This document shows, in pieces, positions 17,869 to 21,863 of a stretch of DNA of 23,419 nt. Position 1 is the stretch's first letter; each line of letters starts with the position of its first letter. Under the pieces are notes generated by a model. That model saw only the letters and a program-made list of their open reading frames with translations. It searched no databases and had not been told where the DNA came from. This DNA is from a virus: IMG/VR virus record IMGVR_UViG_3300048550_000288, positions 1 to 23,419 of that record; one strand, written 5' to 3'. The position numbers and the translations under genes were made by a program.

Positions 17869-18594
17869 CTACTGATAATCTTTGCGTAGTCTCTCGGGTA
17901 GCTCAACTACAGTCGATGAACCGCATGCCATACATCTGAAGTTGTCTCCAACTTTTCTGAATACTGCGATTGATACTCTTGCAATTAAACCCCAACCCTG
18001 GGCTAACGATTTGTCGCTAGCTCCTGGGCAAGTCTCCGCTCCAGTGCATCGAACTGCTACTGTTGTAGAACCTTTACCCTCTTTGTTTTCTATCATCTTT
18101 GAGTGCGGTAGATAACCCAACTCTTCGATGAAGTCTTTTATCATTAGGGTGAATTGAGGGCCTGCTGTTGTTGCTGTTGGTTTCCCTTCGGCTCCTAAAT
18201 AATTTTTGATTATTCTTGCGAACTTAGGGCCATGGCCTGTCTTAACTGGTAAGATTGCATGGGTTACCTCGTGTGCTACAACCTGGGCTGTCTCAATGCA
18301 TTCTACTAAAGTACTAGCTCCCAATGTTGGCTTAATGAATATCTCTCTAAAGTTTCCTTGAGAATGATTTTCATAATGACAAACTCCGATTGCTGAACCG
18401 CCTGCACCATTAGGCATAAACCCGATTGATAATTTAATATTTTCTCTCGGAACCACTGGCACGAACTCTTCTTCGATTTTGTCATAAATAAAGTCTGCTA
18501 CTTTATTCAACCAGTCTTCACGATTACCACTAAATAAATTTTTGTGTTCTTCGTGTACTGGGTTTTCTGCTAAAAGAATATTTCCATTCTTCAT
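17869..18594 (-). CDS. SprT-like zinc metalloprotease (241 aa)
   Basis: ATG at 18594 follows AGGAGGCAAA. Residues 100-130 contain VVAHEVTHAILPVKTGHGPKFARI: HEVTH (108-112) with a third ligand at H121 is the SprT/Wss1-type zincin signature. A C-terminal zinc ribbon is suggested by C183, C189, C221 and C224 (CMAC), also usual in SprT-like proteins. SprT/Spartan relatives cleave DNA-bound proteins; in phages they occur in replication/early regions. The Tyr-poor, Gly-rich loop GFMPNGAGGSAIGV precedes the active site. Transcription probably comes from the promoter at 18628-18656. Confidence 0.7.
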   Translation of the reverse strand: MKNGNILLAENPVHEEHKNLFSGNREDWLNKVADFIYDKIEEEFVPVVPRENIKLSIGFMPNGAGGSAIGVCHYENHSQGNFREIFIKPTLGASTLVECIETAQVVAHEVTHAILPVKTGHGPKFARIIKNYLGAEGKPTATTAGPQFTLMIKDFIEELGYLPHSKMIENKEGKGSTTVAVRCTGAETCPGASDKSLAQGWGLIARVSIAVFRKVGDNFRCMACGSSTVVELPERLRKDYQ

Positions 18595-18624: not shown

Positions 18625-18656
18625 TCAACATTAGTTGAATAATGTCGGATAGTCAA
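18625..18656 (-). promoter_or_regulatory. Leftward promoter with TCAAC-N4-GTTGA operator
   Basis: On the minus strand TTGACT (18651-18656) and TAATGT (18628-18633) are separated by 17 nt, a good sigma-70-type spacing. The -10 lies inside the inverted repeat TCAAC-ATTA-GTTGA (18625-18638), so a bound protein would block the promoter of the protease gene. The same repeat form occurs at 19441-19454. Confidence 0.5.
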
Positions 18657-18711: not shown

Positions 18712-18987
18712 TTATAGCATTCCATGTTTTTCTAAAAGTTTTTTCAAGTCTTCATTAAAAGAATGGGCGTTGCTGTCTTCCATAGCATAATAAAATGCTG
18801 TTGCAATTAGGCTCGGGCTCCATCCAAATAATTTAGATAAATTAACTCCTAGTTTGCTTTGTGCGGTAATTAAATTATCATCGCTCAAATTTTCATAGTC
18901 TCTCAACAAATAAACAATTTCCGAATATTCTGTAATTCGGTCATGTGTTCTTTGTAATTTTTGTTTTTCTAAACTGATGTTACTCAA
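18712..18987 (-). CDS. Hypothetical first protein of the leftward operon (91 aa)
   Basis: I place the start at TTG 18987 with GAGGAGG about 7 nt upstream; the frame continues to an ATG at 19026 that lies within an RNA hairpin and has no RBS. All-helical protein (LEKQKLQRTHDRITEYSEIVYLLRDYENL...LKKLLEKHGML) with a hydrophobic helix GWSPSLIATAFYYAM. It is the first gene after the control region, so it may be a regulator; no DNA-binding motif is certain. Confidence 0.5.
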   Translation of the reverse strand: MSNISLEKQKLQRTHDRITEYSEIVYLLRDYENLSDDNLITAQSKLGVNLSKLFGWSPSLIATAFYYAMEDSNAHSFNEDLKKLLEKHGML

Positions 18988-19007
18988 TTTGCTCTCCTCC
19001 TCTAAAA

Positions 19008-19026
19008 TTGCACCACGATGATGCAA
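19008..19026 (-). promoter_or_regulatory. Leader hairpin just before the first early gene
   Basis: In the minus-strand RNA, UUGCAUCA and UGGUGCAA pair over 8 positions (one U-G wobble) around a UCG loop, directly upstream of the GAGGAGG ribosome-binding site of the 91-residue gene. The wobble pairs only in the minus-strand RNA, supporting an RNA-level structure. Confidence 0.35.
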
Positions 19027-19039
19027 TTTATAAAGGGGG

Positions 19040-19410
19040 CTAGAATGATTATGCGGCCTGTCTGCTGTTGGCTCCCTTGCGTAAAGTTGGCCGCGTATCG
19101 TTGAACACTGGGGCTGCTAGTTTGGTTTTAATCTCTCTAGCGTTTTACCTATTGTCTGCGGTTTCCTTAGCTTGGATTTTTCGCTTGTGAGGTTAGATTT
19201 ATAAAGTTTCCTTCAGTACCCTTGCGGGCTAGAGGTAAGCGGTTATTTCCTTCCGCGTCTATGTTTCCCTCTAATCATTCTTTGGGCTGTATTCCGGGGC
19301 CTTGGCCTCTGTCCGGTGATTTAGTTGAACACCCTCTAAATGGTCTCTGTCTTTGCTCACTTCCCGAGGCTATTTTCTGAAGGTCTCGGGGCCCCTCTCT
19401 TTTGTGTATG
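19040..19410 (-). ncRNA. Candidate structured non-coding RNA / long leader (~370 nt)
   Basis: This stretch has no plausible gene on either strand, is visibly richer in G+C than the genome around it, and folds into many nested GC stems when read leftward. Stems: CCCGAG/CTCGGG (19363-19368 with 19385-19390), ATTTAG/CTAAAT (19319-19324 with 19336-19341), CCGG/CCGG enclosing GGCC/GGCC (19294-19316), GCGG/CCGC (19239-19256), a GCAA tetraloop on CCC/GGG (19219-19228), GCTAG/CTAGC (19116-19141) and GCGGCC/GGCCGC (19053-19094). On the minus strand the unpaired parts are A-rich with GGAAAC-type loops, typical of structured RNA. Tandem TTGACA promoters lie directly upstream. No RNase P, tmRNA, tRNA or group I intron signature. 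Ends are approximate. Confidence 0.5.
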
Positions 19411-19415
19411 ATTTA

Positions 19416-19480
19416 ATTTAAGCAGGTTTCCTTAATCCTGTCAACAGTTGTTGAATAAATACATAAAAAATATATGTCAA
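19416..19480 (-). promoter_or_regulatory. Tandem leftward promoters with operator dyad
   Basis: Two consensus TTGACA boxes face left: 19475-19480 with TATTCA 17 nt on (19452-19457), and 19439-19444 with TTAAAT 17 nt on (19416-19421). The inverted repeat TCAAC-AGTT-GTTGA (19441-19454) overlaps the first -10 and the second -35. These would drive the structured RNA and the whole early operon and be controlled by one regulator. Confidence 0.55.
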
Positions 19481-19695
19481 GAAACCCAATGAATAAAGGG
19501 TATTTCGGGGGCCTAAAAAAAACTTAAAAAAAAATAAAAAAAGTTTCTCTTTTTGGTGCAAGAATTGGCCGAAGACTTTGCAAGAGGCAAGCTAAAGAAT
19601 TGTTAGTAGTAAAACATTCGGGGGGTAGTTGTTTAAATTTCTATATCATTAGTCTACAGAGTGTTTATACAATGAGACAAACAGAATATATATAC

Positions 19696-19741: not shown

Positions 19742-20006
19742 ATAAATTTAGGGGGAGGTTAAATGTTGACCCCTTTATTATTATATGTGTACCCCTTAGA
19801 AATATGCTGTTAACCTATCAGTAAAACACCTCTGTTTCTTTACTAGTAAGTTATTACTTAAATTAGATATTAAGTGGTTCTTACCCTGTGCTACGCCCTC
19901 CCAAACCGAATTAAATCCATATCGCAGCATTTAAACAAATGTAGAATAATAGCCTTTTACGCTAGTTACCATGGTCAGGCCAGTCCACTTACATGAGTTC
20001 TTATCG

Positions 20007-20037
20007 GATAGATTTGTCGTAGGGCCTGTAATCTATC
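20007..20037. promoter_or_regulatory. Inverted repeat in control region
   Basis: GATAGATT (20007-20014) and AATCTATC (20030-20037) are perfectly complementary over 8 bp, with a 15-nt loop containing GGGCC. On the minus strand it lies about 15 nt downstream of the extended -10 at 20054, so it could be the first hairpin of a leftward transcript. Confidence 0.35.
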
Positions 20038-20053
20038 GTGTTTGTGTAATTCA

Positions 20054-20062
20054 ACTATACCA
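20054..20062 (-). promoter_or_regulatory. Leftward extended -10 promoter
   Basis: On the minus strand the sequence reads TG-G-TATAGT, identical to the extended -10 in front of the rightward gene at 20299. No -35 is evident and no gene begins nearby downstream, so its product may be an untranslated RNA across 19750-20045 or a long leader. Confidence 0.35.
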
Positions 20063-20216: not shown

Positions 20217-20245
20217 TGCTCCTCCTTTCTATTGTGTATAAAGTT

Positions 20246-20282
20246 AAGTAAGGCCCTACTGGCAACAGCAGGGCTTTTACTT
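20246..20282. terminator. Hairpin with GCAA tetraloop between divergent small genes
   Basis: On the plus strand AAGTAA pairs with TTACTT and GCCCT-A-CTG pairs with CAG-C-AGGGC around a GCAA tetraloop (20253-20274), followed by TTTT. This fits a Rho-independent terminator for rightward transcripts leaving the control region. Because no rightward gene lies upstream, it may instead end a non-coding or read-through RNA. Confidence 0.45.
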
Positions 20283-20283
20283 A

Positions 20284-20298
20284 TGGTATAGTCTTTTA
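20284..20298 (+). promoter_or_regulatory. Extended -10 promoter with leaderless start
   Basis: TG-G-TATAGT (20284-20292) is followed after 6 nt by the ATG at 20299, so the mRNA would begin at or beside the start codon. No Shine-Dalgarno is present. This matches the arrangement at 7380-7396. Confidence 0.45.
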
Positions 20299-20400
20299 AT
20301 GGATTATGTAAGTGTCGAGGATTGTGATATTTGTTTGCACCCTTATTGGGCTGACCAGTTAATGGATGGTGTCTGCGAGAACTGCCAAGAGTTTACATAA
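20299..20400 (+). CDS. Zinc-finger microprotein (33 aa)
   Basis: MDYVSVEDCDICLHPYWADQ then a turn and VCENCQEFT: two C-x2-C pairs 14 residues apart, a complete single zinc ribbon/knuckle in 33 residues. No Shine-Dalgarno, but an extended -10 lies 6 nt before the ATG, implying a leaderless message. Tiny treble-clef-like proteins in phages often bind host transcription or replication factors; here only the metal-binding pattern is clear. Confidence 0.55.
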   Translation: MDYVSVEDCDICLHPYWADQLMDGVCENCQEFT

Positions 20401-20422
20401 AAAATTTTCGGTCCTACCTGCA

Positions 20423-21761: not shown

Positions 21762-21863
21762 TTGAAGATAGGGTGCCCTAAATGTGGGCTATACTTAACT
21801 TACGATATAGACAGGGCCAAAATGACCTGTTTAAACAAAGAGTGTGAAGGATATAAGAAATGA
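21762..21863 (+). CDS. Zinc-ribbon microprotein (33 aa)
   Basis: TTG start directly after the previous stop; reads LKIGCPKCGLYLTYDIDRAK then TCLNKECEGYKK. The four Cys (CPKC and C-x4-C) form a rubredoxin-like zinc ribbon. Ends with ATGA overlap into the terminase gene. The palindrome TGTTTAAACA lies inside it, read as Cys-Leu-Asn. The TTG start is the only weak point. Confidence 0.5.
   Translation: MKIGCPKCGLYLTYDIDRAKMTCLNKECEGYKK
21828..21837. repeat. Dispersed palindrome copy 15 (CTGTTTAAACAA)
   Basis: Inside the zinc-ribbon microprotein gene, about 30 nt upstream of the terminase start codon. Confidence 0.85.

Follow-up and report, generated by a model that had tools for sequence, protein, structure and literature searches.

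Few large structured RNAs have so far been described from phages, and even for the best known of them the function is not settled. GOLLD forms an RNA-only nanocage, and pRNA of the phi29 type serves a packaging ATPase which is different from the conventional terminase. GOLLD, ROOL and OLE are large, pseudoknotted RNAs of unknown or poorly understood function (PMC12286853). The stretch of DNA analysed here (the window, 23,419 nucleotides) is the 23.4-kb record IMGVR_UViG_3300048550_000288 of an uncultured virus, a marine phage. The terminase large subunit gene (terL) is located on the plus strand at 21860, and the genes below 19026 are on the minus strand and run leftwards. Based on DNA comparison with relatives, most of the intergenic region 20400-19030 is conserved at least as well as the flanking genes, and two blocks are prominent in it: 20060-19760 (RNA A) and 19047-19410 (RNA B). 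The original prediction had described the second block as a large RNA upstream of the early operon, similar to GOLLD in style and of no known class, and this reading stands; RNA A, a second and more conserved structured RNA, had been missed.

The RNA B stretch was expected to be free of ORFs over about 370 nt and richer in GC than its surroundings, and both are the case. It contains no ORF of at least 60 amino acids (the longest stop-to-stop runs are 69 codons on the plus and 44 codons on the minus strand), and its GC content of 48%, versus 30% and 32% in the flanks, is unmatched by any other 376-nt stretch of the window. The minus strand folds with a z-score of -2.55 against dinucleotide shuffles (1 of 100 shuffles was as good) and the plus strand with -0.60; in single-sequence folding of the relatives the mean z-scores are -1.07 (minus) and -0.33 (plus). 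Since the relatives fold only modestly better than chance, folding energy alone is indecisive and the comparative evidence decides.

We used the Rfam 15 models to compare the region with described families. With cmscan at the gathering thresholds no match was found in the window or in 13 relatives, in agreement with the expectation of no known class; at E<=5 there was also none in the window region, and at E<=3 no match to GOLLD, ROOL, OLE or a group I intron was obtained at 7 loci. tRNA genes, near which (or near islands of which) GOLLD is often found in phages, are absent from the window and from 31 relative loci. Both RNA B and RNA A are close to GOLLD, ROOL and OLE in style, but by these tests, the lack of a covariance-model match and of a tRNA neighbourhood, neither is a member of these families. 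The group I intron was rejected as a candidate, as RNA B lacks an Rfam match, is intergenic and interrupts no gene. RNA B could still be a highly diverged member of one of these four classes, as its size, pseudoknots, GNRA loops and A-rich joints are alike in style and some of the classes are phage RNAs (PMC12286853); however, with no Rfam match, no tRNA genes nearby and no intron-interrupted gene, we find this barely credible.

Scanning IMG/VR with the neighbouring proteins returned about 70 related contigs, and 23 distinct complete versions of RNA B are present in related phages. The search for homologues and covariation suggested with the original prediction is thus answered by 23 complete, covarying homologues. 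Of the matches listed for a 15-nt RNA B pattern in IMG/VR most are due to chance, and no further complete homologue is found among them. A DNA search of named phage genomes and plasmids gave no usable match, matches at E 0.5 or shorter than 50 nt being regarded as chance. Concerning bacterial or prophage copies, the RNA A pattern and terminase relatives are absent from the 84,980 species genomes searched. Neither RNA is described in the literature searched, the scope of which excluded most subscription journals and preprints. The genomes of the phages carrying these RNAs are roughly 40 kb. The parts of RNA B, with the evidence for each, are as follows.

19047-19410, minus strand: RNA B, structured noncoding RNA (homologues, covariation, covariance model)
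19363-19397, minus strand: 5' pseudoknot domain, H1 CCCGAG/CUCGGG (19385-19390 with 19363-19368) and H0 (changes on both sides in H1 and H0)
19187-19360, minus strand: H2, GUGAG (19356-19360) with CUCAC (19187-19191), the long-range helix which closes the central multibranch domain (RNAalifold, covariation)
19273-19343, minus strand: arm of H3 (CAUU/AAUG), H4 (GGUGU/ACAGCC) and H5 (CCGG/CCGG) (subtype alignments)
19229-19274, minus strand: arm of H6 (UAGAGG/CCUCUA) and H7 (GCGG/CCGC) (subtype alignments)
19219-19228, minus strand: H8, hairpin CCC-GCAA-GGG (ACC-GCAA-GGU in relative L008)
19176-19184, minus strand: A-rich motif GCGAAAAAU, conserved and unpaired, which follows H2 and hardly varies among 22 sequences
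19056-19175, minus strand: exchangeable 3' domain, with terminal hairpin GCC-AACAGCAGACA-GGC (19056-19072)

RNA B is about 360 nt long and contains at least eight helices. Its predicted 5' end is near 19408-19410, and its provisional 3' end is the conserved ...CGCAU at about 19051. At its start the predicted transcript has ...ACACAA, a box which is also found just before several ribosome-binding sites of the phage. From 5' to 3' the order is H0/H1, H2, the H3-H4-H5 arm, the H6-H7 arm, small hairpins (several of them GNRA-capped), H2', GCGAAAAA, the 3' domain, the last hairpin and CGCAU. H0 is formed by the strand preceding H1, which pairs with the H1 loop. H4 contains a conserved bulged G and encloses the conserved UGUUCAACUAAAU loop (19319-19331).

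The alignment used for RNAalifold, pair counts and the covariance model comprises 22 sequences. Given no structure, RNAalifold returned two helices, the long-range H2 and the short pseudoknot H0. H2 is paired in all 22 sequences, with changes on both sides in four of its five base pairs; its versions are AUGAG/CUCAU, GUGAG/CUCAC, GUGUU/AACAC, GUGGU/ACCAC and AUCGG/CCGAU. For H0, H1 and H2 together, 93.6% of the cells are paired versus 75.7% when the letters of the 3' strands are shuffled (29-49% in slid controls), and 48 cells carry double changes versus 12.3 after shuffling; no shuffle reached either value. In a tree-preserving test of all column pairs, our own implementation of an R-scape-like null, an H2 pair ranks first (E=0.033). 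MAFFT misaligns the swapped arms across subtypes, so this test gives only one significant pair on all 23 sequences, and H3-H9 were checked in subtype alignments instead. There the arms H3-H7 covary, the alignments for most helices beyond H0-H2 being small (7 sequences each) and the structures hand-placed. The covariance model built from the 22 sequences recovers two homologues on which it was not trained, L203 (E 1e-13) and L160 (E 4e-9), the latter with a further compensatory version of H2 (GUGGG/CCCAC). L086 is an apparent, more diverged relative with the same H1/H2 plan (by eye, CUUAG/CUAAG and AUCGGG/CCCGAU).

The direction of the RNA can be derived from the wobble pairs: G-U cells outnumber A-C cells, 48 vs 19 in alignments A2-A4 (A2 34 vs 11; A3 10 vs 4; A4 4 vs 4) and 148 vs 46 over all four alignments, RNA A included, which identifies the minus strand as the RNA strand. 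The same asymmetry bears on the view that the region is conserved as DNA, as a replication origin, operator array or bent DNA whose stem-loops are DNA hairpins. The surrounding intergenic region does have operators and T-tract repeats, and TGTTTAAACA sites are many genome-wide; however, G-U against A-C points to an RNA strand, and H2 spans about 165 nt and is accompanied by a pseudoknot, unlike origin hairpins, and we regard this view as very improbable. The structured minus-strand RNA of the original prediction is supported by covarying homologues and by the wobble excess. RNA B is almost certainly a real minus-strand structured RNA family, and comparison of its sequences demonstrates that its fold (H2, H1 with the H0 pseudoknot, arms H3-H7) is under selection.

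As to particular elements, the GCAA tetraloop (CCCGCAAGGG, 19219-19228) is located exactly where the original prediction had placed it, and UGUUCAAC does occur at both 19324-19331 and 19100-19107, but the second copy is found only in one 3'-domain subtype and varies. The proposed GCGGCC/GGCCGC closing stem and the alternative folds ATTTAG/CTAAAT and GGTG/CACC were rejected, as the relatives do not support them: the letters of the closing stem are present but broken in L004 and L005, and the hairpin GCC-AACAGCAGACA-GGC covaries instead; CUAAAU is kept, but at the proposed position ATTTAG is unique to the window; CACC is lost in the closest relatives, and GGUGU pairs instead with ACAGCC about 40 nt downstream. 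A link through TCAAC between the RNA and the operator had also been proposed, to which conservation lends no support.

The stems differ considerably between relatives. In the 5' pseudoknot domain L021, L023 and L070 have the swaps GUUG/CAAC, GAUG/CAUC and GAAG/CUUC. H6 and H7 are represented by 10 and 9 different stems, all complementary; these, like all stem versions in the helix table, were picked by eye and are biased, so that the table serves only to list versions. The H8 hairpin is replaced by CUUC..GAAG in other subtypes. The 3' domain is 56-138 nt long in the clearly delimited relatives, and its terminal hairpin stem is GCC/GGC, GGGC/GCCC, GGC/GCC or ACC/GGU, with CGC/GCG in L203. Arms are swapped as blocks; in L003, a 5' part and a middle part from two different subtypes are joined. 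Judging from these alignments, it appears that shape, not letters, has been retained by evolution, and the exchange of stems and whole domains around a kept core looks like domain shuffling and not simple drift.

The elements located before and after RNA B are the following.

19441-19455, minus strand: predicted operator TTCAACAACTGTTGA; it overlaps the -35 of the promoter from which RNA B would be read
19415-19444, minus strand: predicted sigma70-type promoter of RNA B, TTGACA (19439-19444), 17-18 nt, TTAAAT/TAAATT (activity untested)
19004-19026, minus strand: weak terminator-like hairpin UUGCAUCAUCGUGGUGCAA with a UUUU tail, located after RNA B and before the next gene
18712-18987, minus strand: first small ORF after RNA B, with a probable TTG start behind GGAGGAG, not conserved
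18625-18639, minus strand: second copy of the predicted operator; the SprT-like gene (17869-18594) has its own predicted early promoter here, downstream of RNA B

The operator and the -35 motif are present upstream of RNA B in 23 of 23 complete homologues (the promoter of relatives reads, for example, TTGACA-17-TATATT), at a nearly constant distance except in L203, where they lie about 45 nt farther up. Only the two listed operator copies are found in the window, and similar second sites are found in L003, L005, L007, L012, L014, L016, L018 and L019. The hairpin at 19004-19026 has counterparts with different stems in L003, L006 and L007; the terminator scan did not call it and found no strong terminator between RNA B and the next ORF. 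The gene behind RNA B differs between phages while RNA B is retained, and among the matches listed a relative of the 18712-18987 ORF is found beside only 2 of 103 distinct RNA A loci.

Upstream of the RNA B promoter (19505-19555, minus strand), T-runs at roughly 11-base spacing are kept in relatives; these are phased A-tracts and possibly bent DNA. Between RNA B and the first ORF, L012, L018, L019 and L070 contain variable long hairpins (AGCUUGUAGC...GUUACAAGCU) with differing inner domains, which we read as a further exchangeable RNA module.

Early transcription of RNA B is implied by the promoter and position, and no expression data are available. The main rival concerns what RNA B does once transcribed, namely that it is a cis-acting early leader which modifies host RNA polymerase (antitermination or anti-pausing, as HK022 putL) or controls downstream translation. 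RNA B meets the put-type trait of lying directly downstream of an early phage promoter, here a predicted one (PMC9378689), and without a strong terminator ahead of the following ORF it could belong to the leader of an mRNA; its retention while the downstream gene changes is also what would be expected of an operon-level element. However, put RNAs have about 70 nt and two stem-loops (PMC9378689), a size which RNA B, about five times larger and with exchangeable domains, does not meet. Also, the main early genes have the same type of promoter motif downstream of RNA B, so that much early transcription would proceed without it. The changing downstream gene and the SprT operon's own promoter motif together favour a separate RNA over the leader of one gene and weaken the case for an operon-wide leader. 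We hold a cis-acting leader to be possible but not probable; for a stand-alone RNA working in trans, which is inferred without transcript data, we put the chances at about even.

As a stand-alone RNA, RNA B would be read early from the minus strand by host RNA polymerase, from its own operator-controlled promoter of the predicted sigma70 type. It would fold into a compact tertiary structure through the pseudoknot, GNRA loops and A-rich joints, and would be released or processed from the transcript. In trans it may serve a factor of the host or the phage (a protein, the ribosome or another RNA) as a scaffold or decoy, acting together with or beside RNA A. The expected order would be control at the operator by a repressor or the host and then a surge of early transcription, after which A and B would fold and act before the late terminase-side genes dominate. 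All of these steps are inferred.

The features of RNA A are these.

19750-20047, minus strand: RNA A, structured RNA with core 19890-20047, 3' end not determined (covariation)
20054-20059, minus strand: predicted -10 of RNA A, TATAGT

RNA A lies about 0.6 kb upstream of RNA B and is not in Rfam 15. Its core pattern is found in at least 120 viral contigs of IMG/VR. Among the matches listed, the tree-based test on 99 distinct cores gives top pairs at E<=0.025, mostly within helices: the pseudoknot CAGGCC (20023-20028) with GGCCUG (19976-19981), a long-range helix whose end immediately precedes CACAGGG, and the hairpin UAGC..GCUA. In 44 diverse sequences 94.2% of the cells are paired versus 78.9% after shuffling, with 205 double changes versus 66.5.

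At 19890-19946 (minus strand) two upstream strands are alternative partners of the 3' strand preceding CACAGGG, the first able to pair with it in 98 and the second in 86 of 99 sequences among the matches listed (swapped controls 34% and 56%). A built-in conformational switch is possible on the basis of these pairings. In L171, RNA A has an internal insert of about 100 nt, closed by AAGUUAC/GUAACUU, whose GAUUGGU..AAAACAAC motif resembles one of RNA B; an exchange of modules between the two RNAs is possible.

The RNA B covariance model finds nothing in RNA A phages outside one clade. As far as the sequences extend, RNA A is the mark of the whole phage group and RNA B an additional module in one clade of it, and this confinement implies that the function of RNA B is dispensable or replaceable.

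Among the matches listed, terL was found in 83 loci, and in every one of them it and RNA A are divergently oriented, roughly 1-4 kb apart. This terminase neighbourhood is what suggests that RNA B (and A) could serve packaging or particle assembly like phi29 pRNA. There is, however, no Rfam match, pRNA included, the phage has a conventional terminase large subunit, and RNA B is optional and on the early, not the late, side, and we consider a packaging role very improbable. A wider and only tentative idea, which we would sooner doubt than accept, is that the two RNAs belong together as one phage RNA machine. In this view, uncultured phages of a large and mostly marine family would encode them at a constant location between the early and late transcription units, A being near-universal and B modular and exchangeable; expressed early, the RNAs would work in trans on the gene expression apparatus of the host, perhaps in the form of RNA-only assemblies.

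Other elements were also observed. The palindrome TGTTTAAACA occurs 15 times in the window (0.1 expected), at 2620, 7708, 9052, 10408, 11247, 12106, 14429, 15178, 15952, 16488, 17383, 17844, 18680, 19715 and 21828, and is also frequent in relatives; many sites are near gene boundaries and some within genes, as in a stoperator-like or a boundary/processing element. At 20225-20285 (minus strand) a hairpin with a UUGC-type loop, whose stem varies yet stays complementary in relatives, is followed by conserved ACACAATAGAAAGG; it is a third RNA element or a two-way terminator. A 33-aa ORF at 20301-20402 (plus strand) with CxxC...CxxC (MDYVSVEDCDICLHPYWADQLMDGVCENCQEFT) is possibly a tiny zinc-binding protein.

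RNA A and RNA B add two further families outside Rfam 15, with covariation-supported structures, predicted starts and a rigid genomic place. Their alignments and alternative helix versions are ready-made compensatory mutants, so that function is directly testable. The high rate of domain exchange in RNA B is uncommon, and it points to either an arms race or targets that can replace one another.

Compared with the known systems, RNA B and phi29 pRNA are both structured phage RNAs whose sequence lies outside the protein genes; RNA B differs in having no Rfam match and in the conventional terminase of its phage. Like OLE it is a large ornate RNA, but OLE is found mainly in extremophilic bacteria (PMC12286853) and its model does not match. 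HK022 putL likewise is structured and opens an early transcript of its phage (PMC9378689), but it is a short element of two stem-loops acting in cis on RNA polymerase, and RNA B is far larger and swaps domains. ROOL is a phage and prophage RNA with multiple helices and pseudoknots (PMC12286853); pseudoknots are present in both RNA B (H0/H1) and RNA A (CAGGCC/GGCCUG), which is a general feature only, and the solved ROOL example has 659 nt, whereas RNA B is not near tRNAs and has no covariance-model match. GOLLD resembles RNA B in being large, elaborate, phage-borne and of unknown function, with a conserved and a variable part (PMC12286853); many of its members exceed 800 nt, versus about 360 nt, and RNA B has no match to its model, no tRNA island and a position directly at a predicted early promoter. 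Our best reading, to which we give roughly even odds, is that RNA B is an early-transcribed, probably stand-alone structured RNA which is similar to GOLLD and ROOL in style without being a member of either.
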